64,000 nucleotides of DNA, from positions 14,522,295-14,586,294 of the forward strand of contig CM057002.1 in assembly GCA_029891345.1 (NCBI GenBank), given 5' to 3'. The position numbers were made by a program, and so were the translations under genes. A model generated the notes under the pieces. The model worked only from the letters and a program-made list of their open reading frames with translations. It was not told where the DNA came from and did no database searches. Of this stretch, positions 25,712-64,000 are shown one piece after another (position 1 is the first letter of the stretch; the number at the start of each line of letters is the position of its first letter). The DNA is from Dryococelus australis (taxonomy: Eukaryota > Arthropoda > Insecta > Phasmatodea > Phasmatidae).

Positions 25712-25749
25712 CTGCACACACTCACACACACACATCACTCTTGATGTGG

Positions 25750-26160
25750 ACGGACAATACAGCTCTTCCTGCAGACAGATAACACAACTCTTGATGCAAA
25801 CAGACAAATACAGCGCTTCCTGCAGACAGACAACACAACTATATCTGCAGACAGATAACACAACTCTTCATGCAAACAGACAAATACAGCTCTTCCTGCA
25901 GACAGACAACACAACTATATCTGCAGACAGATAGCACAACTCTTGATGCAAACAGACAAATACAGCTCTTCCTGCAGACAGACAATACAGTTCTTCATGC
26001 AAACAGACAATACATTTATTCGTGCAAACAGAAAATTCAGATATTCCTGCAAACAGGCAATACAGCTATTCCTGCAGATAGACAATACAACTTTTCTTGC
26101 TGACAGACATAGAGCTATTCCTGCAGGCAGACAATAGAACTCTTCTTGCAGCCAGGCAAT
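25750..26160. repeat. 25-26-bp minisatellite, about 16 units, next to the coiled-coil exon
   Basis: Units follow the pattern CTCTTCCTGCAGACAGACAA plus CACAA, with variants ATATCTGCAGACAGATAAC and CTTGATGCAAACAGACAAAT. In the first half three unit types recur as a block of about 76 bp. On the minus strand (the receptor's strand) eight units read TCTGTCTGCAG/GA or a near variant, a T-rich 3' splice-site-like sequence. The array starts about 40 bp upstream of the true exon acceptor, and the exon's frame stays open back into it as far as 25,861. Confidence 0.85.
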
Positions 26161-27418
26161 ACACCACTAATGCAAAGTGATCCTGAATTCCAATTACAAA
26201 TTTCTTGAGATGATTCGTTCTGGAAAATGAGGTAGATATATATCATAATACGACCTATGGCGACGGACAGGAAAATTTCGTGAATTGATTTGAGGACAAA
26301 GCTTGACTTCAAACACTCGTATATTTGCGTTGTTTTGACTATTGGCGCGTTGATTATTAGACACGCCTTAGACGACTCTGCGCCAATAGAAAATCTGTAC
26401 GATAACTTGCACCGTATTCCGTGTTACCTTGTTAAGTATAAAATTGGCTACTCAGTAAGGTGGCAACCACAAACGAACAGCTAAGACTATAGTGTACAGA
26501 GGACAGAGGAGTTGAGCCTACACATAATTTTACTCAACGAATAATCTAGCAAATTTTGTACTTGGAGTTGATGATATTGATGTATTTCACGGACCACTGT
26601 TGGCAATATGGCATCCGGAGACTTTATTTTTTTAGTTGTGACAAAATTAAATTTAGTGGCCATAGAAGATTAGCAGTGACAATTGTATCATTTGGTGTTA
26701 ACCACAAGAAAAAATGCCGGTTTGGTGAATATCAGCAAAATATTTTGTGGCTGCCACAAAGTATTTATTTTTCTAGCAGGTCGTTTAATTTTTCAAATAC
26801 ATCACAATCTTATTTTATTTCCTGTTCATCTCTTTAAATGGCCTTGGATGCCACTTAAATAAGACTGGCAGAACACATGAATAATTTCATGTTGGTACAG
26901 TACAGTTACGTAATAACTACAAAAAAATTAAATTACGGCCAGAATTACTTCAGCCACTAGGGATAACGAGAAAAATTAGTATAGAATATTTTGGAACTGA
27001 CAAACAAACGGTCCAGAAAAAATTTAAAGTTGTTAAGAAGTAATATTAAGATGAGGTGATAAATACCTAAACGAATGGCAGAATAAGTGAGAAAATGAAG
27101 GCCTGAGTAAATGAAGGGGTAGAATGACTAGTGGAATGAACAAGTAAAGGGCCTGCCACGATGGAGTAGATTCGTCTCTTTGATCTGTCCGAGTAAATCG
27201 TGCTGTCTCCGATACAGCATTTGATTGGTGCACGTGACCTGTGGCATCAGCTGCTGATGGTGAGGACGTGAGGCAAGGTACGACCTACTGGAGATGGCCA
27301 GCCTTTATCTTTTTGAGGTCAGAGAGGACGGACTGCCCCATCCGCACCTGATGTCACCAACGCCGAGACCAATGAGATGCTTTGTTTATAAACAGAAAGG
27401 AGAAAGGGCGCGAAACGG

Positions 27419-30314: not shown

Positions 30315-30506
30315 CTGCGGCACCACAACACAACATAGTCCCGCCTTCATCTTGTACTCCACCCACCGCCACTTATAACTTATCTCAAGCCCTGCTCAAG
30401 TTATACTTATTTCTCCACACCGCCTCGTATGAACAAAGCTTAGAAAATTACACTAGAGGGCCAACACTCCGCATTCGTGGCCACTTTGCACAAGAACTAA
30501 TTCTTA

Positions 30507-30931
30507 AAGGCTGTTCACGATAAAGTGAGCACTTTTGAAATCAACCTTACACAAAAGTCACTGCTCTTGTCTGCATACATTTTAACGGGCCCCCTGAGTT
30601 ACATGCGTCCAGTCAAGTTGGTAACGCTGGAGGGGGAAGTAGTTTCATATCTTAACATCGAATAAAAAGTGTTAGGTAATTATTTATGTAAACTTATATT
30701 ATTTCTTTCACTTTATGCTTCTCTAATGCTTTGGAGAATAAAGATGGACAAATTTGAAAAATATTATCTTTTCTAATAATTCTACAGTTTCACTTGACCG
30801 ACGCATGAATGAAGTGATCGGGCTCACGGTAATTTGAATTTTACATAAGGCGGAAGAATACACAACGTGCATACAAGTAGATCTTAAGCAGGGCTTTCAA
30901 AAGTGCTCATTTTACCGTGAACAGTCTATAG
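30507..30931. mobile_element. Family-A MITE, long form, 425 bp
   Basis: The left end is AAGGCTGTTCACGATAAAGT. The right end is CATTTTACCGTGAACAGTCT followed by ATAG. Terminal inverted repeats extend about 30 bp. Internal markers are CGTCCAGTCAAGTTGGTAAC, TCACTTGACCGACGCATGAA and AAGGCGGAAGAATACACAAC, the last two read in reverse in opposite-strand copies. It interrupts a family-B element at its TTACTA site. Confidence 0.8.
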
Positions 30932-31060
30932 TAGGCATTTAGCAACACACCTATTTTTTTCTCTGACTTTATTCATATTAATTACAATTGAAATATTATA
31001 ATTAATAGCTAAATTATCACTAAAAGTACAATTAACCAAAAATAAGAAACTTTTATGCTG

Positions 31061-31482
31061 TAGGCTATTCACAGTAAAATGGGTACTTTTGATAGCCCTG
31101 CTTAAGATATACTTATAGACATGTTATGTATTCTTCCACCTTATGTATAATTAACATTGACGTGAACCTCATCACTTTATTCATGCGTCGGTCAAATATA
31201 ACTGTGAAATTATTAAGAAAATATATACTTTACAAATCTGTTAATTTAGACACTTCGATGCATTAAAAGGACAGAAAGCTAAAGAGATACATTTAAGTTA
31301 TCACACATGGTTAACAAACACTTTTTATTCGGCGTTAAGATATGGAACTACTTTCCATCCATCGTTACGAACTTTGCTGGACGAAGGTCATTCAGAGCGC
31401 CCATTAAAATATATGCATGCAGGGCAGTAATTTTTTTCTAAAGTTCATTTTTAAAGTGCTCACTTTATCGTGAACAGTCTTT
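31061..31482. mobile_element. Family-A MITE, long form, reverse orientation
   Basis: It runs from TAGGCTATTCACAGTAAAAT to GTGCTCACTTTATCGTGAAC plus AGTCT. It is the reverse complement of the 30.5-kb copy, sharing for example TTCATGCGTCGGTCAA and GGAACTACTTTCCATCCATC. It is nested in the same family-B element. Confidence 0.8.
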
Positions 31483-32113
31483 ACCAGAATTATAAATGCT
31501 TGTGATACAAGATGTATTTAGGAATTAACCGAAGACGTCATACATGGGGTGTTTTTTCCGATTGTTCGTTTCAAAAGTGTGAAGAAACCGACAGAATTCT
31601 TTATAGCCTTGGAAGCCTGTCTTGAAAAGTAATACAAGTATACATTAGGTATAAACTTCTTATATTTTATTAGTTGATAATAAAAATAATTTCTGTTCGA
31701 ACAAACTAATGTCTTAATATAAAACATACAAAGAAAAAACTGAAAGAAATAATATTAATGAGTTTTTTTATTACCTAAAAATGTCAGATTAAAAAAAAAA
31801 ACTTAAAGTGTATTTACACTGTAGTAATGTAAAATGGCCTTAGCCTCGCTGAAAGTATAGGTATCACAAGAAACAGAGACATAAATTTCGTTGAAAATGA
31901 TGAATTTTCGGCGTGAAAACTACGTACGAGTTTCTTATAACCGCTGACAATTTGGAACGTATGGAAAGGGTTTCGGTACATTCAGGGCACAATAAGCAAA
32001 GACCTTGGTTTCACATATTCTGCAACATGCCAGACGTGAACGAGTCTAACTCAGGAGGCTATGCTAAGGGTTAGGCCCAACAGTGATATTATTACTTTTA
32101 AGAAATCTTTCAC

Positions 32114-33265: not shown

Positions 33266-35622
33266 TTGGCAGCTGCGCCAAGATCGACCGCTTCGTGACA
33301 TGCACTTTAGCATGCAGTACAAGTCTACCAGAACGCCTACCTCCAAGGTATTGAACGACCACCCTTATTTCGAGGGCTGTTCAATTATAAACGGCTTAAG
33401 TTAAAGGATGAAAACGAATTGAACTTTTTTTTTTTAATACATTGGCACATGGTGATTAATAATCTATCTTGTAATTTTAGCAAATACCGAAGGCTGTAAC
33501 GTTAAATGCTACGTGAGAGCAGCAACACCTATTTTATTTCTGACTACCGATGTTATTTACAATCACCTTTTCAGGGAGGATGATCCTCGTTTACTGGTAA
33601 TTGCGATAATTTGTTTTCTTCAGTCTGTAATATTTTCCAACTAGTTTTTTAAACTAAACGATTATTATTATTTTCCTATTTTAGAAGGAGAATAATACCC
33701 TTGAGAGCAACAACTCGTAGATATCCTGTCTACCCGATTTTACGTATGGAATTCCACAAGCTCTGTCTCTCCACTACCCTCACGACGAGCGTTTACAGTT
33801 GCTGAACGTAGGAATTCGCAAACCATCGCACGCTCCTCACCTTACTTCCGAAAATCAAGCAGAGCAGCAGTGTTATTGTGAGCTGCGTGTGGCAGAAGAA
33901 AATGATGAACAGCAGATCAGGATTGGCCGGAGACTGAAGAAACAACCTGGAACAATATTACACACACACACACACGCACAGATCATTGTCACGTACATGC
34001 ACGGCAGTTTGTTAAAACCCGCTCGGTCGCACATTAACTTCCGAGTTCAAGTGTTGCAATCACGTAGTTTTTTTTGTACGAACTGTACTTGCGTTCTCTC
34101 GCAACCAGTGAACACGCTAGGTGCTCGACCATTCATGTGAAAGAGGTGCAGAACATTTCACATATCAAATGGGCCACAAGGAAGACTGAAAAGTAATTGG
34201 TAGCGATGCCTTACTGTGTACAGCACAGGCCACGACTTTCATTCATTTGCAACGTGACCGCGATTGTGGACATCGGGGGTCTTCGAACCTTTAACCTGTT
34301 ATCCCGTGTATGCTCGTTCAATAATGACATGTTGCAGAAGAGGTCGCTGCTGTACAGCTACAGAGGGATTACTGGCGCTGGAATCGCCTCTCTCTCTCTG
34401 GGCAGTGCTACTCGTTGATCCTGACACACAAAACTATTTTAGAACTGGTTGCTTATTTCGCCATGGATGTACTGAAACAATTTCCATTTGTTTTCAAAGT
34501 TTGAGTTATAAGAAATTCGTAAGTACTGTCGCGCCATAAATGTTCTACTTTGCAACACCTGAAATGAAAAATTAGTGTGTACGTAAAGGGGTCTACACCC
34601 ACTGGAAATTTTTAATAAGAAACACATCAAAAACCCTTCACAGGAGGCAAAAGGACAGTCACAAAACAAACGAACAAAACAGGGATAAATATTCCGGAGA
34701 AGCAACAACACGAGGACAGCACAACAGGGGTGTACAAGAAGGAATAAAACAAGTTACAACACAGCAAAAGACCCTTCAAACTTAAAAATGGAAGTACGCC
34801 GCTCACAGACGTAATTCCTGAATAGGTTCGAATACCATACGCGGTTAAAAACACTTTTAAAGATAACCTTTGAGAAAATTTTCTGCCCAAAGCTGTAACA
34901 CTTCAGCATTCAGAAGTGAAATAGGGAATCTTCATTAAAAAAAACGTTCTTTATCCATTGGTCTTAAAGATAACTATTTCAAATAAAAAGTAAGTACCTA
35001 TCCTTCGTGAAATTTACTAAGGGACACTGGAACGATAGTACATTTTGCCAATTTTATGTATAATATTTTTTGCTAGAATTTACCATTAAAATTTACAGTT
35101 TACAAAACAATGATGAACTAATACAATTTGAAAAAGTTTTCTTTACGTGGAAACACTGTCTGAGAAAGTTGTACTGAATATTTATTTTTGTTTGAAACAG
35201 TTTTCTTTTAAATCGATGCAATTAAGGTGTTGGACTCCAAAAAATCGATCATTTTATATGTTTAACAAACATTATTCACCTTGTATGTATTGTATGTGGT
35301 GACATTTTCCCCGAATAAAAAATTCTCAACTATTTTTTTTATTTTTATAATTTGATGTCGAATACAAAATTCTTCTGTCTCGTTGCAGCTAGAATAACAA
35401 ATACTAACTATGTTAAAAAAAAAAAAAAAATTACAAAGTAAACTAATCCAATGGGCTACCGCATGACACATATGTAAATCACCAAATAACAAACCATACG
35501 TATGGAAAAAAAAAACGTTGAACACATAAAGTGGGCAATATAGATTGTATCAACCGCTACACGTGAAAGGAAATATGATTGGGGCAATCAGTTAGAAATT
35601 CCATTGTCAGACAGCCAGCCAG

Positions 35623-36657: not shown

Positions 36658-36796
36658 ATGGAGACGTTAAGGAAGACGGAGAGAAGAAATTCGTTGTAGA
36701 TCGCCATGGAGATGAAGCGGCTCTCGTTGAATTCTGAAGGAGCCTTCCGAACCACGATGCAGAGACGTATACCCCACATCAGGAACATAACTTCAA
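36658..36796 (-). CDS. GPR158-like: GPR158/179-like receptor, TM5 exon
   Basis: The exon lies between acceptor TTGTGTTACAG and donor AT/GTAAGA. It carries TT, 45 codons, then AT (139 bp). It reads EVMFLMWGIRLCIVVRKAPS, then EFNESRFISMAIYNEFLLSV and FLNVS. The pattern E-x-x-F-L-x-W-G-x-x-L-C-x-x-V-R-x-x-P-S-x-F-x-E-x-R-(Y/F)-x-x-x-A-(V/I)-x-N-E matches TM5 and intracellular loop 3 of GPR158/GPR179 very closely. This is the segment that identifies the gene. The first two bases complete a Leu codon begun by C at 56,987. The expected spacing from the ECL2 Cys (CRTDWWDH) to FLMWG is exactly kept. Confidence 0.88.
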
Positions 36797-46330: not shown

Positions 46331-46974
46331 TCGGAGGACTTTCAGCGGTGGCTTAATTATTTTAACGGTGGGAAGTCTGCAGGAAGATTCAGTGCAGGGC
46401 CCTTGGGTAGTATTGTATGTCTCCGATGCGTGCATTTGGAGCTAAGAGGTTTTGAGGAAGCCATATTGGATTAGTCTGAAATGATGTTTCAAACGCGCGT
46501 GATATTTTGAAAGCACTCTACAGCCCTCCTCTAAAGTGTGCGTGTTCGTTTCGTAGATCATTACATTGGTCACACGTTTAATAGTGTCTTTGTAAAACGT
46601 GTATTTCAAACATCCTGTAGCGCAGTTCCAGCGTCAGGTAGACGGGAACCTTAAGTTCCCTGTAGCAGCGGTCTGCGCCCTCACAGAGGGAAGGGAGGCA
46701 AGCACGAGTCTTCAGAGGCACAGGATGGATCTGGTACATTTATTACCGGTGGCAGAGGCGCGTGATAATTAGGACGTTTGTAACCAGTCGCCTGTCCTCA
46801 TTACCAGTTGGCAGCGGTGACGTGGTGTCGGCGCCAGGGTGGCCACACCACATCACCAAACTTCCCCCGGGCTACACCACTGCAACTTCCCTCGACGCGA
46901 GCTCTCCCTCGTGCACACACGTCTTGTTACTCCTGTTTGTGGCGGTCAGTCGGGGGCGCAGCATTTGTCCTTAA

Positions 46975-47445
46975 ACCATTTGGCCAAACATGTGCTTGAT
47001 TCAAAGGGCATTTACCAAATCAGCAGTCTGGCAGAAAATGCGTTTGGTAAACAGGTGTTTGGCAGAACAGGTGTTCGGCCAAACACGCACTTAGCAGAAA
47101 TTGGATATGGCTGAGCAGGCGTTTGGCCGAACAAGAATCTACCAAAACAGACGTTTGGCGGAAAGGCATTTGGCAAAACAGGCGTTTTGCAGAACATTCA
47201 TTTAGCCGAACACGTAACTAACCGAAAACCCAATTGTCAGAATTGGCTTCTGGACGAACAGACGTTTGGTAGAACAGGTATTTGGCAAAACAAGCGTTCA
47301 GCAGAACAACCGTTTGGTAGAACAGTAACTTCGCGAAACACGCGTTTGGCAAAACAGGTGTTTGTCAGAATAACTACCAGGCAGTACAGGCTTTTGGCTG
47401 AACAGGCGTTTATTAGAAAATTCTGCCAAATGATTTTTCGGCCAA
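46975..47445. repeat. Degenerate 18-20-bp minisatellite (TTTGGCAGAACAGGCG)
   Basis: About 23 units of the type GCGTTTGGCAGAACAGGTGT follow one another with frequent changes (GGCCGAACA, GGTAAACAG, AGCAGAAC). The array leaves open frames on both strands (+ 46,839-47,114, - 47,012-47,197 and + 47,187-47,573) that only reflect the repeat. Confidence 0.75.
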
Positions 47446-49319
47446 ATTATGGATACTCGGGCTGTCTTCATGTAAATATACAGTTAGGATGTTCGCAATA
47501 CTCACGTTGGAGTACTTTTAGTAGGGGAACCCGATTTTCGCAAAAATGTTTCAGAACCAGTTGTATTTCATAAAAGTTTAGCTCATATCTACTCTCGCAG
47601 TTGGATTATTTACGTGTTATGCGTCTTTGCTGTCTGTGTGCGAATCATATATGTAACAGCTACTTAGCACTTAGCCTTCCAGGGTCTTGCTATGCTCACC
47701 CACAGGCACAGGTCTCCTTGGACAGCTGGTGAGTTCCCAGCGCTCAGGGCCCCATGCCCGCTTCCGCCACTAGGCATTTCTCTTCAGCCACCTGCCCCAC
47801 TGGGCATAGCTATTCCTCTGGAGAAATAATCCATCCACCACCGTAGAGATTATTGAAACGACTGCCATCGCGTGTCCTACCTCAGTTGACCTCATGGGCA
47901 TCAGTATGCCCCCCAGAATGCGAGAGTCTGGATGTCCCTTGCAGGCACGACTCGTTACCCCAAACGTTCCACAGACTAAGAGGGAACCTCACACGGGGCC
48001 GAGGTCAGTCCGAGCTACTATTTCATTTTCAACACACTTGTGGGTTCTCTGGATAGGGTCGACTGATGCTTCTAACCCTTACCAGGTTCTCTCCATACTA
48101 TTGGGTTTCTACGCCGTGATATCCTAGTCTTCCGCTGTACCCGATTTCGTAAAAGCTCGTGCAAGGTCTGCCATAGCTGCCGTTATGCCGGCCTGTACGG
48201 CACCCGTAATGGCAATTTTCGCCTCGCGCTGCCAGATTTCATCACAGGTTTGGTAATTGAACCTGTCCTATTTTCCGTGGCAGGTTCCATACCGGCTCTC
48301 GTGCCTGGCCAATCACATTGCAGTTTCAGAGCGCAGGGTACTCCCCGTGGCTACTACTTGAAACGAGTTAATGAAGAAACTGAAAAGGACACCTCCATCT
48401 TGAATTTATATCCGTGAGATTGAAACTCTTTCAAATAGATTTAAAATACAAAGACGAGTAATATTGGCTATGACAACTTTTAATTACTGTTTAAAACCGT
48501 TGTAAATACTTAGAACATTACCTACTACATGAAAAATGAAATTAAAACAATGAACATTATCAAAAGTATATAAACCTCAAACTTAGTGTGTGAACTGGTG
48601 CTACAGTGGTAAACTTGTAGCTCCCGCGAGTACTATATTAATTTTGACCATTAGTTCGAAACTCCGTCGGACCCAAATTTTTTTATCATTAAATTTCACA
48701 TGCGGATAATATCCTGTTACATAAAATTTTCGTCAAAATAAAAAAATAACACTCGTACTATAGCGACTACACGTCATTTTCAAGTAAATGAGTGAAACTA
48801 TACTAGTAAGAAATAATTTATGTATAACGCGAACAGTAATATTGCAATATTGAGATGTGCTAGCTAGTAGTTTTATAGGCCTACGCAAGTTACCAACTGG
48901 CAGCAGTTCATATATACTACAAACCACACACTGCGCACCCACCGAGGATGCCAAATGCTAGTACGCGAACTGCTGTCGTGTAATATGAATCTTCCATGGC
49001 GGCTCATATAGCGGCTGGTATACCGGCTCGTGCACCAGGGCGTGTACAAGGACCAAGTACGGCAGCAGGTACCGTGTCGTATCCGCTTTAGATTGGACCG
49101 GCCCGCTACCAGGCACCACCTCACGAATTGCCCCGGGGTACGTTTTGGCTGTGACGCAGATACCATTTGCAGTAAAGCATGGTGTAGGGAACGCCCGGGA
49201 GTTTACCCATGTCTGCTCATCCCAACCATGTAACTGTCTCAATACTGTTGCACTCGTTTCTGGTTTTATTTCTAGAGTTATTGATTTTACTTTCAAAGAG
49301 AAGTCAAGTAGGCATGTCC

Positions 49320-49557
49320 TATAGGCTGTTCGCAGTAAAATGAGCACTTTCGAAAGCCCTGCTTAATATCTACTTGTATACACCTTGTGTATTCCTCCGC
49401 CTTATGTAAAACTAACATTGTCATGGGTCTCATCACCTCATTCATGCGTCGGAAGTGAAATTGTGAACTTATTAAAAAAAGTAAATATATTTCTTATCTG
49501 CTCATTTTTACACTTCGATGCATTATTGTCACAATAAAATTATATTTCAAATCAAAG
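49320..49557. mobile_element. Family-A MITE, long form, truncated
   Basis: TATAGGCTGTTCGCAGTAAA, AAGCCCTGCTTAATATCTAC and TTCATGCGTCGGAAGTGAAA match the reverse-orientation long form. Similarity ends after ACACTTCGATGCATTA. Confidence 0.75.
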
Positions 49558-49639
49558 TTAATTAATATACGACATAAATGCTATAATAATGCTATGTGGC
49601 AGCGACTAGACTACCAGGCAAGCATGAACTACCCTGTGT

Positions 49640-49859
49640 ATAATTAAATATAATTTTTATTATACAATACAGTTAATATTACCTTACTTGTATGGGATTT
49701 CCCCCCACTTTTGTCAGGTACTTTTCCCGTACGATTAGGGAATAGTACCTTACTTGTCATGTAAATTTACTCCACATTTGACAGGTAATTTACATGTAGA
49801 GGAAATTAGCTTCCCTTACATGTAAGAGAATTTTACCTGAATTTTTTTACAGTGTAACT
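49640..49859. mobile_element. Half copy of the tRNA-core inverted-repeat element
   Basis: This is the reverse complement of 51,771-51,990, down to TTTTTTTACAGTG at the end. It includes GATTAGGGAATAGTACCTTA and TTCCCTTACATGTAAGAGAA. The half with the tRNA-like segment and the other terminus are absent. Confidence 0.7.
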
Positions 49860-50735
49860 AGCACTACTTTTGTTTCTGAAAAGAATCAGGCCACACTAGC
49901 CGGCGTATCATAATTGACTGATTTTCCAACAATAGCGTTTTAGAACAAAACTTATTCATTCTAAATTGGAATCAGCTAGGGACGAGCGCAGAAAAGAACG
50001 TTTCAGTTAATTACGAAGTTATTTTATATTTTATTTATGATAATTGCAATTATCCAGTTTTTAACGTAGAAAATAAAACTCTGTTACACACGCGACACTA
50101 ACACTTACCTAGTGGTGAAAATTTTGGTTGCCAAACTTTCAACATTGATATTCCCAACCTGAGTGGAAGTGATCATAGCTGAGATAGTGCAAGTGTATCA
50201 GTGATAACAGATAGGTAAAGCAAACAGGTACGAGTTGTTACTGTTGATGGCGACTAAACTGGCAACTGTCACTGACAATATCATTACCAGGAGAACAAAA
50301 ATAAGAAGAGCTCGTTGGTTACACGAGCGTAATCTGAAGCTTGTCCTGCCAATGGATGTCGCCCCTACCTGCACTTCAGAGAATTCAATCAATTTTCAGC
50401 CACTGTGACGACTGAATAAAAACTTACAAAATAATTTTGCTTCTTTTTTTAAACATTTAATATCATTACAATGGCCAGCAGTTTCAATGCCAGTACATCA
50501 TATACCGACAGCAAGTAAGTTATGTGGTACTAATTTACTTAAAAAATTACATTAAATTAAAATTGTATACGCCCTGAATTTTAAAATTTCAGTTTAAACG
50601 GTGACCAACTTAAATAAGTGATATCGGACTATAAATGTTATAAAAAAAATAGTTTTTTTATTTTTTGTTAGCAGAGACTCGACTACCAGGAGCGCATAAA
50701 CTACAAATGACCTACAATATGTCAGGAATATGAAG

Positions 50736-51166
50736 TATAGTTGATTCACGGTATCTTCGGCCTTTTCGGAAGCCCTGCTGAAGTTCTACTTCCAGGATAT
50801 TCCTCCGCCTCGTGCTAACTAAGCTTGGCTAAGTATGGAAGATTACACCAGAGGGACAACGCACTAGATTCGTGCGCACTCTGTTGTAACAGTATTTTGT
50901 TTAAGAACTATTTCTCACTAGGCGCTACCAACACACATATTTTATCACTGTTTTTATTCAAATAATTTATAAATGAAGCAATATAACTTATAGGTAAAAT
51001 ATGAATAACATTTCAATTTAACAGAGAAAAAGTTTACTTTAATGCATACAAGTTTAAAACTCTTGTGATACAGGGCGTATTTAGGAAACAACCAAGAATA
51101 TCATACATGGCGAGATTTTTCAAGGGTTTGATTCAAAAAAGCCGAAGAAAGAGTGAATGGACTTTA
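50736..51166. mobile_element. Family-B MITE, complete, 431 bp
   Basis: It starts TATAGTTGATTCACGG and ends GTGAATGGACTTTAG. Between lie AAGCCCTGCTGAAGTTCTAC, GATATTCCTCCGCCTCGTGC, GGGACAACGCACTAGATTCG, ACTATTTCTCACTAGGCGCT and ACCAACACACATATTTTATC. This uninterrupted copy defines the family order. Confidence 0.8.
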
Positions 51167-51770
51167 GTTGCGAACATGTACGAGTTGTTACTGAGAAATA
51201 TATTTTAGTAGTAGTAAGATGTTAGGAACAAAACTACATTTTTCTTAAGGGAGAGTCTGGGAGTAAGAAAAATGCCCGCCGCTAGGTGCACCAGTTGGTA
51301 ACTATTTACGCCAGTTTCGGCGATAGTCTTAAGGAAGAGAGGTACCGCAGGGCCTCAGGTCTCTCGGCCAATGGGAGGCGCGACCGCACACTCGTGTGGC
51401 GGAGGATCAAACCGTATTTCCGGTGGCTAACGTGTCTCCGGGGACCTGAGTGCTAGACAAACTGCTTCTCTTTCCCTCTCGCCCGTAGACCACTCTAGTG
51501 GCTCCAGGATAACCTCTTACCCTATTGAGCATTGGAGGTATTCCTCCGAGAACGAGATTTTAACCTGCAGGCCTTACAAGACTCTGCGATATACGGCCGC
51601 GCACAAGGAAAAACTTCGTTGCAGTATCTGATATTTTAAATATACTGATGCGAATATATATTCTGTTTACAGTTAACTGAGCACTTTTGATAGAACTGCT
51701 CAAAATACTTTTATCTCACTATGTATTCTTCCTCTATATAAGGTTAACGCTGCCATGGACTGTCGCACTG

Positions 51771-52630
51771 TAAAAAAATTGAGGTAAAATTCCCTTACAT
51801 GTAAGGGAAGATAATTTCCTCTACACGTAAGGTAAAATTACCTGTCAAATGTGCAGTAAATTTACATTACAAGTAGGGTACTATTCCCTAATCGTACGGG
51901 AAAAGTACCTGACAAGAGTGGGGGGAAATCCCATACAAGTAAGGTATTATTAACTATATTGTATAATAAAAATTATATTTAAATATACACAGTGTATTAG
52001 TACCGTTCATTTTTCTTTATTACCTACATCCTTTGACGAATAGTAACCGAATTCTTAACTCTAAAATCTGCGACACTTGCCGGAGGGCGGGCGCCCACTA
52101 TGGACCTCTATCGCCATAGGCCGAGGCGGTATATATTACACCACGACGGCAGCACGACATGACAAGTGAATATTAGTGTGTTAATGGGTTGTTTTTTTCT
52201 GTCCGTCCTTGCACTTAGCTGTTAAGGAATTGCTGAAGAGATGCACGCCTCCTAAGGTAATTTTCCCATCCATTTATGGTATTTTCCACCGCTATGTACG
52301 TGAATTCTACCCCAGACTGAGGTAGTTATACTTTACATATTAAGAGCCAAGTTGGACAGCTTGTATGACTAGAGAACAAAAATTAATTTTAAGGTAGAAA
52401 ATATATATTATACAATTTATTATCAAATAGTTACCAATCGACTAGGAGATCCACACGTCGTGTGGCAATTGTCCCATCCATGTATGGAATTTTTCACTAC
52501 CATGTATGCGAATTTTACTCCACAGTACAGTAATTATACCTTACACGTAAGGAAAACTATGTTTCCCCCACAAGTTCGGGAATATTACCTTCCACTTGTC
52601 GAGTAATTTTACCATTATTTTTTACAGTGC
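51771..52630 (+). mobile_element. Inverted-repeat element with subterminal palindromes and tRNA-like core (copy 2)
   Basis: The left end is CACTGTAAAAAAATTGAGGT. The reverse complement of the right end is CACTGTAAAAAATAATGGTA. Both are followed by AAAATT. Subterminal parts repeat GTAAGGTAAAATTACC, CCTAATCGTACGGGAAAAGT and GGGGGAAATCCCATACAAGT. A tRNA-like segment lies at about 52,096-52,160 on the minus strand. The copy is 860 bp, against 620 bp for copy 1, because extra AT-rich sequence lies around 52,330-52,450. Confidence 0.65.
52096..52160 (-). other. tRNA-like segment inside the 51.8-kb element
   Basis: On the minus strand GTCGTGGTGTAATATATACC is followed by GCCTCGGCCTATGGCGATAG, AGGTCCATAGTGGGCGCCC. 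It lines up base for base with 19,048-19,106 in copy 1, sharing GTCGTGGTGTA, TCGGCCTAT, GATA and CCATAGT. Orientation relative to the element is the same in both copies. Confidence 0.5.
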
Positions 52631-52898
52631 ACTGTATTCATGCGTCATTCTAAGGAAACCGTGAACTTTTTTTTTTAGGAAAGTATGTGTGTTCATAATA
52701 AGCCAGCTCGTGCGGTTGTGAGCATAACACAAGCAATACTGACTTTAGTAGCAGCAAAATTAGATGTTACTCTCTCAGAACAACGTCAAAGGGTGGAACA
52801 TTTTTTCTTTCGTAAATCGCTGCCAGCTTAACTGGAACCCGCATGGCAGTAAATACTGTGTGGTATTATGGGCAGTGATTTTATTTTTCCAGAGGTTG

Positions 52899-53166
52899 AG
52901 GGGCAGCTGTGGCTAAGCGGTTAGCCTGCTCGCCTCCCACTAAGGCGAACACCTGGTTCAATCCCCGGCCGGGCCACTTCTTCAGATTTTCGCAAGTGGG
53001 GATTGTGATGGACGATTCCGCTGGTCGGCGAGTTTCCTCGGGGACCTCCAGTATCCCCCCCCCCTTTCCCGTTGCGTTCCGACGCCCCTCCATCCTCACC
53101 ACGTGTCGCCCTCGTCGGCTCTCAAGACCTCGATGTTAAGCGCTGCCCAAATATCTTCACTCATTC
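52899..53166 (+). mobile_element. tRNA-derived SINE, most complete copy
   Basis: The head GGGCAGCTGTGGCTAAGCGG then TTAGCCTGCTCGCC contains TGGCTAAGCGG, a full match to the Pol III A-box consensus. CTGGTTCAATCCCCGGCC gives the B box 40 bp later. The body GATTGTGATGGACGATTCCG, CTGGTCGGCGAGTTTCCTCG and CGTCGGCTCTCAAGACCTCG is shared by all copies. The tail is CCAAATATCTTCACTCATTC. The parent tRNA cannot be named securely. Confidence 0.88.
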
Positions 53167-53437
53167 ATTGTCGGAAACCAATTCGTAAATCATGCTAATG
53201 CAGATGACCGCAAATCCTAAACCTCATTAGTTGTGAGAATGAAACAAATGTGTCGGCTTAAGTAAAACACCACTAAAAACATTCTTAATTGCGAAAACTG
53301 AAATCATAAATAAAAAGATTTTGAAATTGTTAATTTGTGTCGTGCGGTGGCTGGTGTTCGGTTAGTGATAGTATCTACTGTGTGATATGCCATGTACTTG
53401 GTTGTTAGCCTACAAGAAAGGCTTATGAGATAACTTT

Positions 53438-53440
<3 letters not shown>

Positions 53441-53484
<44 letters not shown>
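53441..53484. repeat. (GT)n microsatellite
   Basis: Twenty-two GT dinucleotides immediately precede the divergent tandem array. Confidence 0.9.
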
Positions 53485-53486
<2 letters not shown>

Positions 53487-53499
53487 GCCTTTTTCAACT

Positions 53500-55480
53500 T
53501 TTGAATGCGTGGACCGAATTTCACCAAACTTGATGAATATATGGTACTTAGAAATTACACCTGACTTTCATAGTTTTCTATTAAATTGGGCAGATACTTT
53601 CAAAATGGCGGCCGTTTTAAAATTTGGGGTGATTTGTCACATCTCGGGAACCATTCAGCCGATTTAAAACAAATGTTATATGCTGGCAGAGCATCGTGTA
53701 AGTATCATATTTTGAGTGGGATATTGTTGTTGGTCCGCCATTTTGGAAAATAGCATCAAATGATTAAATAAATATTTTTCATTATATCTCTAAAACTATT
53801 AAACTAATTCTCACCCAATTTGGCAGATACGTAATACAATGATAGATCAAGAAAACGCAAGTGATTGAACTTGATAGGGCACTTACGTTCAAAATTGCGG
53901 CCATACATTTTTTTTGTATATCTGCCATACCATTCAAACAATTTCAACACAATTTTGTATACTGAAAGTATCTGTTAGAAGTATTATGTATACCAAGAAC
54001 TAACCACTTTTATCAGCCATTTCGGATGATAGCGCCATACGAATAAAGTTATTATTCATACCTCGGTAAACAGTTTACCGATCCCTACCAAATGTAACAA
54101 ACAACTAATACTAATGAAGATGACATTAAGTGATATGTTTTAAGCATTCCAGACATTTATTTTCCAAATGACGACTAGATAGCAATTTAGGTTTAGAATG
54201 CTATATGTTCGAAATTATGTAATCAATTTGAACATAACTTTGTATTTTAGCATTAGATATTGGGTCTATCAACTGTATCTACACGAGGCATATTTTATCC
54301 GCCATTTTGTAACATGGCGCTATTCGAATAAATTAAGTTTTTATGTCATAACTCGGGAAACAATTTTCCAATTCCTATCAAATTTGGCAAAAAATAGTAC
54401 TGAAGCAGATGATGTTAGGAGGTATCTTGTAAGCAAGCCAGGCACTTATGGCGGACATTTAGTTATTTTAGCTTTAAACACTTTATCGTCGAAACCATGT
54501 AATCTTTCCAACTTAACTTTGTATGCTAGCGTTAGATATTACAACTATCAACTGTATCTATACGGAGCATCTTTTGTCATCCATTTTGTAAGATAGCGAC
54601 ACGTGAATAGATAAAGATTTTATGTCATATAGCGGGAAACACAAATTTCTACCAAATTTGGCAAATAAACAGTACTCCAGCAGGTGGTGTAAACTGACAT
54701 GTTTTAAGTAGGTCAGGCAATTATTTTCGTAATGGTTGCTATATCAACAGTTTAGCTCCATTAATTTTAGCAACGAAACCAATTCTAACTTAATTTTGTA
54801 TGCTGGCAGTGCCTATTGCAACCATCAAATATGTCTGTGCAGTCTCATTTCTCTGTGATCGGCAATATTACATGTATTTTTTAAGTATGACACGCTTATT
54901 TCAGAATGGCGGCTATAAGTTAATTTTAGTTTTGTGGGCTATATCTACGAAGTTATGTAATCTATTTTAACTTAACTTTGTATAGCGGCATGTGCTACTA
55001 CATTACTACATCACTTTTTTGTTCTCCATTTATGAAGATTGCTATATGAAAATTATGTAGGTTTTGTGCCATATTTAGAGCACCAATCAACCGATTCTTA
55101 CCAAATGTCACACTGGAACGCTACAGAAGTCCATGTAAACATTCATGATTTAAATGGGCCAGGCAACGATGTTCAAAATGGCTGTCTCATAAATAATTTA
55201 GGTAAGTTTGCTGCATCTAATAAACGATTTAACAAAATTCAACCAAATTTTGTAGGTTAGCATTATATATTAGAAATTTTGTATGATAGCATTAAGTATT
55301 AAAATAAAAGTTTTTTTTTAGGTAATATATAGGGACCAAACTACCGATTTCCACCAAATGCTTCATACAATTATCGCTACGGTAGGCCATGTAAACTTAA
55401 ATGTTTTAAGTGGCTCAGTCACTTATTTTCAAAATGACGGCACTCTAAATATTTTAGGTTAGTACACCCTATTATTCGAA
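53500..55480. repeat. Divergent tandem array, about 270-290-bp units, with ATGGC motifs
   Basis: About seven diverged units share a phrase like TCGGGAACCATTCAGCCGAT, then ACCAAATTTGGCA, TTTTGTATGCTGGCA and a (C/T)CGCCATTTTG. AAAATGGCGGC-type blocks recur near 53,604, 53,893, 54,163, 54,448, 54,729, 54,908, 55,175 and 55,432. Open frames within it (for example + 54,198-54,596) are not shared between units, so it is non-coding. Confidence 0.7.
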
Positions 55481-55524
55481 ACATTAAACTGATTAAATCC
55501 GAAGTTGATGCTCTTTATTCGAGC

Positions 55525-55590
55525 CCATAATGCACTGCATTGCACGCTATCTTATTGCACGAGGTTTTCTGGGTTCAAATCCCGGGCAAC
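55525..55590 (+). other. tRNA-like 3' half (weak)
   Basis: CTGGGTTCAAATCCCGGGCA (55,569-55,588) carries a perfect T-arm/B-box motif with a 5-bp stem. The upstream sequence does not form a convincing D arm. It may be a tRNA fragment or SINE head. Confidence 0.3.
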
Positions 55591-55619
55591 GCACGTGTGT
55601 ATTTGTAATTGTCTCACTA

Positions 55620-56990
55620 GTGTAGCAAGGAAGAGTTAGTACTGACATACGGTACGTGGCGAAGCAGAGAGATATAGGAAGTGCAGGTACTGGCATACGG
55701 TACATGGTGAAGCAGAGATAAGTATGGTACTGACGCGTGGTGAAGTGGAGAGATAGAGGAGGGGCAGGTACTGACATACGGTACGTGGTGAAGCAGATAT
55801 AAGTGTGGTACTGACACGTTGTGAAGTGGAGAGATAGAGGAAGGGCAGGTACTGACATACGGTACGTGGTGAAGCACAGATAAGTGTGGTACTGACGCGT
55901 GGTGAAGTGGAGAGATAGAGGAGGGGCAGGTACTGACATACGGTACGTGGTGAAGCAGATATAAGTGTGGTACTGACGCGTGGTGAAGTGGAGAGATAGA
56001 GGAAGGGCAGGTACTGACATACGGTACGTGGTGAAGCACAGATAAGTGTGGTACCGACACGTTGTGAAGTGGAGAGATAGAGGAATGGCAGGTACTGACA
56101 TACGGTACGTGGTGAAGCAGAGAGATGGGAGAATGTCTGGTACTGACGCGTGGTGAAGTGGAGAGATAGAGGAAGGGCAGGTACTGACATACGGTACGTG
56201 GTGAAGCAGAGAGATGGGAGAATGTCTGGTACTGACGCGGTGAAGAGAGATAGAGGAAGGGCAGGTATGGGGCATCGGTACGTGGTGTGAAGCAGAGAAA
56301 AGTGTGGTACTGACGCGTGGTGAAGTGGAGAGATAGAGGAAGGGAAGGTACTGACATACGGTACGTGGTGAAGCAGAGATAAGTATGGTACTGATGCGTG
56401 GTGAAGTGGAGAGATAGAGGAAGGGCAGGTAATGACATACGGTACGTGGTGAAGCAGAGAGATGGGAGAATGTCTGGTACTGACGCGTGGTGAAGTGGAG
56501 AGATAGAGGAAGGGCAGGTACTGACATACGGTACGTGGTGAAGCACAGATAAGTATGGTACTGATGCGTGGTGAAGTGGAGAGATAGAGGAAGGGCAGGT
56601 AATGACATACGGTACGTGGTGAAGCAGAGAGATGGGAGAATGTCTGGTACTGACGCGTGGTGAAGTGGTGAGATAGAGGAAGGGCAGGTACTGACATACG
56701 GTACGTGGTGAAGCAGATATAAGTGTGGTACTGACGCGTGGTGAAGTGGAGAGATAGAGGAAGGGCGGGTACTGACATACGGTACGTGGTGAAGCACAGA
56801 TAAGTGTGGTACTGATGCGTGGTGAAGTGGAGAGATAGAGGAAGGGCAGGTAATGACATACGGTACGTGGTGAAGCAGAGAGATGGGAGAATGTCTGGTA
56901 CTGACGCGTGGTGAAGTGGAGAGATAGAGGAAGGGCAGGTACTGACATACGGTACGTGGTGAAGCACAGATAAGTGTGGTACTGACGAGT
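55620..56990. repeat. 81/89-bp minisatellite abutting the TM4 exon donor, about 17 units
   Basis: Each unit has two related halves, GGTACTGACGCGTGGTGAAG with GGAGAGATAGAGG, and GGTACTGACATACGGTACGT with GGTGAAGCA. Short units end CAGATAAGTGT (81 bp) and long units GAGATGGGAGAATGTCT (89 bp). Units with AATGACATACGG are always long and recur 170 bp (56,431 to 56,601) or 251 bp apart, showing a higher-order repeat. All three minus frames are stop-free (503-559 codons when counted with flanks). The last unit overlaps the receptor's 5' splice site. Confidence 0.92.
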
Positions 56991-57201
56991 GGTGAAGGAG
57001 TGGTCCCACCAGTCGGTGCGGCAGAGGTAGGCCTTGAGGTCGTCGGCGGTGCGGCCAACTATGACGAGGGGCGGTGCCACTAGAGTGCGCACCAGCAGGA
57101 ACATGCTGAACACCGCCACCACCACGCCCAGCCTCTTGAGCAGGTCGCCGTCCGTGATCTTCACCGCCTTTGCCGACCGCACGCGGAAGATCACCGAGAT
57201 C
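56987..57201 (-). CDS. GPR158-like: GPR158/179-like receptor, loop 2-TM4-ECL2 exon
   Basis: The exon starts after acceptor TTGCTGTGCAG with one base of a codon, then 71 codons, then C before GTCAGT (215 bp). It reads ISVIFRVRSAKAVKITDGDL, LKRLGVVVAVFSMFLLVRTL, VAPPLVIVGRTADDLKAYLC and RTDWWDHSFTT. The basic loop ending in IT-x-x-x-LL-K/R, TM4 (VVVAVFSMFLLVRTLV) and then a short loop with C-x-x-D-x-W-D match class C orphan receptors GPR158/GPR179. The loop Cys should pair with a Cys at the top of TM3. In vertebrates GPR158 is a glycine-sensing, RGS-coupled receptor. Any ligand in insects is unknown. The last 13 coding bases belong to the repeat unit of the adjoining minisatellite. Confidence 0.88.
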
Positions 57202-62866: not shown

Positions 62867-62970
62867 TGTTATAGGATAATTACATTGCGTGTACTACGGA
62901 AAAAAACACTGAAAAAGTAATCTTTCACTAATATAGGTCGGAATAAATAATTATGCAAAGGAAATAGTAC

Positions 62971-63400
62971 TATAGGCTCTTCATGGTAAAATGAGCACTT
63001 TTGTAAGCCCTGCTTAAGATATACTTGTAAACACGTTGTCTCCCCTTACGCTTCATGTAAAATTAACATTACCGTGAGCCTCATCATTTTATTCATGCGT
63101 CAGTGAAGTGAAAATTTTGAAATTATTAGAAGTTTAAATATTGTACAAATATGCTCATATTTACACTTCGATGCATAAAAAAAAAAACCCAAAGCGAAAT
63201 AAATAATTTAAGTCATAGCAAATAGTTACTTAACATTTTTTTATTCAACGTTAAGCTATGGAACTACTTTCCATCCTTCGTTGCCAACTTTACTGGACGC
63301 ATATCGCTCAGTGCGCCCGTTCAAATATATACAGGTAGGAGCGGTGACGTTTTTCTAACGTTGATTTCAAAAGTGCTCACTTTTCCGTGAACAGCCTCTA
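62971..63400. mobile_element. Family-A MITE, long form, reverse orientation
   Basis: TATAGGCTCTTCATGGTAAA and GTGCTCACTTTTCCGTGAAC plus AGCCTCTA are its ends. AAGCCCTGCTTAAGATATAC, TTCATGCGTCAGTGAAGTGA and GGAACTACTTTCCATCCTTC match the copy at 31.1 kb. Confidence 0.8.
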
Positions 63401-63732
63401 AAGGGAATTGCTTACATTCAGAAAACTTGCATACTGGAAAGAAAGTGTGATAACTTGAAACCCGATAACTTTGTGTTACAATTGTGTGTCCCAAGGTGGA
63501 CTGCATACAAGGAAGTGTTAGTTTGACGTTTGACATTGCAGCTTCACTTATCCGACACTCCCTGCCGGATTCACGACCAATTGTAAACACTAAGGCCTCT
63601 GTTAGCTTCATTCTGTGTGGCTGTATGGAACAGGAGAATGAGTTCTGCCTGTGGTGGCAGCCAATGAACACGTGACTTCTGCTCGAGTGTGTACCTAGAT
63701 GACTGCGGGGGTCCAGCTTTGCGCCGTCTTAC

Positions 63733-64000
63733 AAAGGCTGTTCAAGATAGAGTGGGCACTTTTGAAATCAACCTTAGAAAAATGTCACTGCTCATACCTG
63801 CATATATTTCAACGGCCGCACTGGAGTGGCATGCGCCCAGTAAAGTTGGTAACGATGGGTGGAAAGTAGTTCCATACCTCAACGTCGAATAAAATATGTC
63901 AGATAACCATTTGTGATCATTTAAATTATTTCTTTCGCTTTCTGTTATTTTTAATGCATCGAAGTGTAAAAATGAGCAGATTATGAAAATATCTACTTTT
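63733..64000. mobile_element. Family-A MITE, long form, cut by the window edge
   Basis: AAAGGCTGTTCAAGATAGAG starts the copy. GCGCCCAGTAAAGTTGGTAA and ATGCATCGAAGTGTAAAAAT follow in the forward order of the 30.5-kb copy. The right end lies outside the window. Confidence 0.75.

Follow-up and report, generated by a model that had tools for sequence, protein, structure and literature searches.

A dimeric minisatellite takes in the end of the TM4 exon in two paralogous GPR158/GPR179-like receptor genes of Dryococelus australis

The window analysed here, a 64,000-nt stretch of the Dryococelus australis genome, carries on its minus strand exons of a receptor gene (g1) related to GPR158 and GPR179, which are orphan class C receptors. 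Its TM4 exon (56987..57201, minus strand; 215 nt) encodes ISVIFRVRS...WWDHSFTT plus 1 nt, has the acceptor CTGTGCAG|G at 57201 and matches the human GPR179 structures 8d1b and 8irj (phmmer, E 0.0026-0.0027), the likeness to GPR179 covering TM4 and the loop after it. The TM5 exon (36658..36796, minus strand; acceptor TTACAG|TT, donor CAT|GTAAGA) lies 20.2 kb downstream of the TM4 exon, the distance spanned by the intron between the two, and the TM6-7 exon is found at 33841..33946 (minus strand; donor AAG|GTGAGG). TM5 and TM6-7 were located with a human GPR158 probe, which gave E 8e-9 for the former, E 0.048 for the latter and a weak E of 0.23 for a TM2-3 exon; the TM labels of the g1 exons are taken from the human GPR158 sequence. 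Likeness to GPR158/GPR179 was thereby seen across the seven-transmembrane core, in TM4, TM5 and TM6-7 and weakly in TM2-3. The Pfam family 7tm_3 had no match in the translation of TM4 exon and array, nor in the three minus-strand frames of 46500-55601, a stretch outside which the TM5 and TM6-7 exons fall. The genome holds at least four related receptor genes, two on contig C10, one on C8 and one, weakly, on C16. Four loci within C6:115067302-119265946 match a GPR158 TM1-3 probe weakly and with near-equal scores (E 0.016-0.021), and may possibly represent a family of related receptors. For Drosophila smog, GPR158 is given as the most similar human protein in an excerpt of PMC6778782.

The 5' splice site of the g1 TM4 exon (56986..56987, minus strand) reads CTC|GTCAGTACC, in fuller form TTCACCACTC|GTCAGTACC, and is in phase 1; its G stands at 56986, confirming the position that the original prediction had assigned to the true donor. 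The two bases after the TM5 acceptor TTACAG|TT complete the phase-1 codon to give HSFTT-L-EVMFLMWG, an ungapped join equal in length to human GPR158. By the homology and phase of this join, CTC|GTCAGTACC at 56986 is the predicted correct donor.

Across this junction lies a dimeric minisatellite (55639..56997, minus strand) of 16 A+B dimers and a partial B, whose first 11 nt are exonic. TRF calls it at 55655-56997 with periods of 81, 170 and 251 (at period 81, 16.1 copies with 87% matches); the limits 55639-56997 stem from half-unit parsing and the A/B counts from hand labels, and weak array homology continues beyond 55639 to about 55628. The units stand head to tail in tandem and are, as is usual for minisatellites, roughly 10-100 bp long, each being a dimer of two related half-units, A (33 or 41 bp, opening CTTCACCACGCGTCAGTACC) and B (48 bp, opening CTTCACCACGTACCGTATGTCAGTACC). 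A minisatellite beside the TM4 exon had been predicted, and TRF and parsing both bear it out; the predicted 17 units of 81/89 bp hold as to the array, not as to the count, which is 16 A+B dimers plus the partial B. The distal edge of the array is worn and the exon edge is not: the first two half-units show 1 and 0 differences, the last full B shows 6. Exact repeats inside the array reach 169 nt, which points to recent turnover as judged from the sequence. No further array copy was found elsewhere in the window at E 1 or better.

Just past the distal array edge, the plus strand at 55560-55600 carries a tRNA-like B box, GGGTTCAAATCCCGGG, perhaps belonging to a SINE; ARAGORN finds no tRNA gene there. 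At the distal edge itself (55612-55645, receptor strand), TACTAAC, a pyrimidine-rich stretch and TAG resemble a branch point and acceptor, an arrangement absent at the end of the second array described below. Other repeats in the window include a further minisatellite with 25/76-bp units at 25749-26163 and a 1-kb palindrome with 75% arms at 30498-31492, which by its related copies (49316-49525, 62967-64000 and L009:3602-4031) reads as a dispersed inverted-repeat element.

The last 11 nt of the g1 exon match the unit consensus at 10 of 11 positions (fixed-register chance about 8e-6), and of the 125,220 11-mers in the window outside 55630-57010 none lies within one mismatch of the unit, so that the likeness of the units to the exon end goes beyond chance, as had been proposed. 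HSFTT had been placed inside the repeat as a whole; this applies to the last 11 exon nt, i.e., FTT with one base on each side, unit homology ending abruptly 11 nt into the exon. That the array takes in the exon end is well supported by these matches.

Genome-wide searches of the source assembly (3.4 Gb, 646 contigs) returned 42 unit matches, all of them inside two arrays on contig C10; these searches limit scoring to the top candidates and may pass over frequent words, and 'two arrays' is to be read as their result. A pattern search with at most two mismatches placed 38 of 56 matches in the two arrays and 18 elsewhere, against 21 for a reversed control. The second array (C10:12824868-12827007), 1.75 Mb from that of the window, is larger, with about 25 dimers versus 16; it, too, starts in a TM4 exon, 11 nt before the exon's end, in this case that of the paralogous receptor g2, whose exon tail CTTCACCACGC agrees with the unit at 11 of 11 positions. 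No alternative source of the unit turned up in the 3.4-Gb genome, and units closer to an unrelated sequence elsewhere in it, which the original prediction had named as an outcome counting against it, did not appear. The intron after the TM4 exon measures about 215 kb in g2 (C10:12611562-12826996) versus 20.2 kb in g1. The g2 gene also has a partial second copy of the TM6-7 exon just downstream of the first (C10:12576463-12576528; 91% over 22 residues).

Besides the true donor, the g1 array contains 23 GTCAGT copies (11 as CGC/CGT|GTCAGT, 12 as TAT|GTCAGT); the GT is lost in 3 of 16 A halves, which read GCATCAG, and 3 of 17 B halves have GTCATT. Another donor-like class, ACC|GTATGT, accounts for 15 sites. 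The prediction of some 30 decoy donors thus failed in its number, as the two classes it had named amount to 23 sites and the ACC|GTATGT class of 15 had been overlooked. We scored the sites with a donor matrix of textbook frequencies, whose values are comparative only. On this scale the true g1 donor CTC|GTCAGTACC is weak (-1.80). The true donor is equalled or surpassed by 38 array GTs in g1 (the 23 GTCAGT and 15 ACC|GTATGT sites) and by 39 in g2; a score of 0 or more is attained by no GT in either array (97 in g1, 153 in g2), versus 6.3 such sites per kb in the remaining g1 intron. The g1 array abounds in sites that share the weakness of the real donor, not in good donors. What survives of the decoy idea after scoring is the set of 38 copies equal to or above the true donor, while good donors are missing from it (0/97), and a role of the copies as decoys is unproven.

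For splicing, the array may be without any consequence, its donor-like copies being by-products that are never used. We would give this reading even chances; it concerns function only and is compatible with the explanation of origin and conversion that we favour below. In its favour, array GTs scoring 0 or better are lacking in both genes although the rest of the g1 intron has 6.3 per kb, and local folding predicts the true donor (accessibility 0.034) to be the second most accessible among the 12 GTCAGT sites of the g1 list, which was drawn up without the overlapping TAT|GTCAGT sites; the 11 others range from 0.0044 to 0.043 and the 15 GTATGT sites, all less accessible, from 0.0007 to 0.0072. 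This higher accessibility of the true donor is suggestive at most. On the other hand, the true donor scores no better than the 38 copies in g1 and the 39 in g2, so that strength alone is unable to exclude them, and for 6-16/IFI6 an excerpt of PMC4526556 reports donor use of two repeat units. The most likely state would be that the exon-edge donor is mostly used and that the equally weak copies just downstream see some use at most. Frame is kept by 28 of 96 GTs in the g1 array without the true donor, or 29 of 97 with it. Use of the first in-frame copy of the GTATGT class, ACC|GTATGT (56950..56951, minus strand), would add 12 residues, and use of the in-frame CGC|GTCAGT one unit on (56905..56906, minus strand) would bring in 27 residues with HFTT at their end; the g2 equivalent of the latter reads GCATCAG and has no GT. 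In-frame use of copies could accordingly place 12 residues (both genes) or 27 (g1) just before TM5.

How the repeat came to share its sequence with an exon end may be approached through the array-free paralogs on C8 and C16 (the latter a weaker match), whose donors read ATTG|GTGAAT and ACAG|GTCAGC. In both, the donor lies as far from the WWD motif as in g1 and is likewise in phase 1, and the C16 TM4 exon is 21 nt longer, further upstream. Neither carries an array: TRF on the 3.2-kb loci returned short simple repeats only, and no unit match was found. Since these paralogs keep donor position and phase, the TM4 junction is probably older than the array. The idea that the ancestral intron start might still be recognisable in the array-free paralogs yielded no signal and was dropped, 61 of 500 and 307 of 500 Markov samples matching the unit as well as their exon tails and intron starts do. 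Amplification of the exon-intron junction is the simplest, albeit unproven, origin, given that this junction is the seat of both arrays and that the searches brought up no further source of the unit. Of the corresponding part of the original prediction, the inclusion of the exon end stands, both arrays starting there; spread from the junction outwards is its putative part.

Spread in the opposite direction would mean that an intronic array extended over the junction and replaced the last 11 exon nt together with the original donor, leaving a weak donor behind; the letters at issue between this and junction amplification are the exon-end FTT and CTTCACCAC. Consistent with such overwriting, the two donors next to an array rank lowest among the 10 scored in the family (-1.80 and -1.32, compared with 0.37 and 4.07 for the array-free ones, on the textbook matrix), the exon edge of g1 is among the least diverged parts of an array whose distal edge is worn, and the exon-end FTT is absent from the paralogs, which have LAI and TET. 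However, an independent genomic source of the unit was not found, in two paralogs and in human GPR158 the donor has the same phase and stands equally far from WWD, and the C16 paralog has GTCAG at the equivalent donor. On balance, we consider overwriting rather unlikely, while granting it some weight.

The two receptor genes resemble one another very unevenly. Their TM4 exons are identical at 214 of 215 nt, whereas 30 of 110 positions differ in TM2-3, 17 of 140 in TM5 (139 exonic nt plus the donor G) and 23 of 105 in TM6-7, together 70 of 355 (Fisher p 1.2e-14 for TM4 against the three others); the comparison covers these four exons. At synonymous sites, pS is 0.018 in TM4 versus 0.95 in TM2-3, where synonymous sites are saturated. 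A tract of near-identity (1/215) thus lies within paralogs diverged at silent sites (70/355 differences overall), as is typical of gene conversion. The tract continues into the array: the first, exon-edge dimer of g1 (56917..56997, minus strand; 81 bp) has 1 difference from the first g2 dimer, exon plus first dimer are identical at 284 of 285 positions, and with 11 nt more there is 1 difference in 296. On the other side, flank homology ends about 12 nt before the exon apart from apparent dispersed repeats, in comparisons of the entire window with 20 kb surrounding the g2 exon and of 3-kb loci round the other exons.

Further into the array, dimers do not sort by gene, mean distances being 8.08 within and 8.29 between loci, a difference reached by 453 of 2000 permutations (16 g1 and 25 g2 dimers, with the worn last g2 pair left out). 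Eight distinct half-units are common to both arrays, out of 22 in g1 and 24 in g2. The longest exact array match is 132 nt between the loci versus 169 and 235 nt within them, and because the former is shorter, exchange between the arrays would be less recent than internal duplication. Within the TM5 exon (36658-36796 vs C10:12611423-12611560), 16 of 66 positions differ in the first part versus 1 of 74 in the rest (p 2.8e-5, for a split picked after seeing the data), so that its 3' part reads as a second conversion-like patch. There is no array beside this patch; conversion would need none here, which suggests that gene conversion also occurs without an array, while an array may help to start or to bound it. 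GC-biased conversion was considered as a cause of the high TM4 GC3 (0.90-0.92) and dropped, the array-free paralogs having values of 0.80 and 0.99.

From these patterns we infer that TM4 exon and array form one block of concerted evolution, best explained by interlocus gene conversion. Constraint on synonymous sites, be it at the RNA level or of another kind, could, if strong, mimic conversion in an exon of 215 nt. A related proposal is that the exon-plus-array block was copied between the paralogs as a single piece in one recent event, without repeated conversion. Here, the 284 of 285 identical positions in exon and first dimer would fit, as would the unit types common to both arrays (8 half-units of 22 and 24) next to unrelated flanks. 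Yet the order of units begins to differ 11 nt past the first dimer, the distal array edges differ between g1 and g2, and the closest long collinear array match seen, in loci that contain only part of the g2 array, amounts to 96.6% over 587 bp, well under the identity of the exons. Nor did a protein search of the genome, with five matches of which two are g1 and g2, reveal a second, diverged TM4 exon on C10; as no such remnant is left over, replacement is likelier than insertion. The similar patch in TM5 moreover suggests that conversion recurs. We consider a single copying event unlikely.

That the array is coding, belonging to the exon and translated as a repeat domain, is extremely improbable. 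No stop interrupts any of the three receptor-strand frames in the g1 array, and the receptor frame stays open for 564 aa, but 8830 of 20000 Markov-sampled 81-mers of equal composition (44%) are stop-free in all frames as well. Each 89-bp unit displaces the reading frame, five stop triplets occur over the frames of the g2 array, and the receptor frame of g2 ends 297 codons past the first full codon of the exon. The TM5 exon joins ungapped at the annotated donor, and all Pfam matches are below cut-off. The coding reading was rejected on the strength of the expected open frames and the g2 stops. Among the Pfam matches, one of the translated array to presenilin (E 2.5e-4, short of the family's cut-off) was set aside as a presumed composition artefact.

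Taken together, we favour as the joint best explanation, and think it likely, that duplication of the junction founded the array, that exon and array were converted between the paralogs, and that the exon-edge donor is mostly used. According to this model, the minisatellite would have been founded by a tandem duplication across the TM4 donor site, reaching from 11 nt before the exon end into the beginning of the next intron, and its dimeric unit would from then on carry copies of the splice donor. The array now lies at the equivalent junction of two old paralogous receptor genes 1.75 Mb apart. Interlocus gene conversion would recently have brought the TM4 exons to their 214/215 identity and would also keep the units of both arrays in one shared pool, with limits where homology is lost, at the acceptor side of this exon and distally in the array. 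A bolder joint reading, to which we attach little credence, is that a minisatellite born at a splice site acts as a recombination track that keeps the exon identical and at the same time as a ladder of equally weak donors for both genes. If this were true, the ladder would add 12 residues (both genes), 27 ending in HFTT (g1) or more before TM5, the HFTT end of the 27-residue insert imitating the exon end, and a single repeat family would influence how a pair of receptors evolves and which isoforms it makes. The locus, if read correctly, would be a natural test of how the spliceosome chooses a single donor when dozens of equal sites lie beside it, and of whether a tandem array drives conversion of an adjoining coding exon between distant paralogs. 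The g1/g2 pair offers a ready comparison for this, with two array lengths, introns of about 20 kb and about 215 kb, and nearly the same exon.

Among the literature matches listed, none reports an array at this receptor junction and none a splice-site minisatellite coupled to exon conversion; splice-donor minisatellites as such are already known, and it is the array common to paralogs together with a converted coding exon that was not met among these matches. The closest precedent is the human gene 6-16/IFI6, in which Turri et al. in 1995 reportedly described a minisatellite giving multiple splice donors. Like it, the g1 array begins at the end of an exon, and its units contain donor-like GT sites. 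In 6-16/IFI6, two downstream repeat units are reported as donors, leading to three mRNA species, in an excerpt of PMC4526556. Unlike these, the g1 units fail as good donors (0/97, and 0/153 in g2, reaching 0 on the textbook matrix); the unit here is an 81/89-bp dimer with weak donors, that of 6-16 is 12 bp long and close to the donor consensus, and the block is common to two paralogs. Another intronic repeat is the VNTR of TERT intron 6 (38-bp repeats), which, according to PMC3948165, promotes exon skipping via RNA:RNA pairing, its copy number altering splicing; both it and the g1 array are repeats in an intron, but the TERT ones, whose effect comes from pairing, are more than 1 kb away from the junctions, whereas the g1 repeats include the junction. 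With regard to GPR158/GPR179, g1 matches over TM4 and the following loop (GPR179) and over TM5 and TM6-7 (GPR158 probe). The hallmark of interlocus gene conversion is near-identity of an exon inside old paralogs, with patchy tracts and unrelated flanks. The g1/g2 pair shows all three features and differs from conversion in general in that one end of the tract lies in a tandem array that contains the exon end itself, at loci 1.75 Mb apart.
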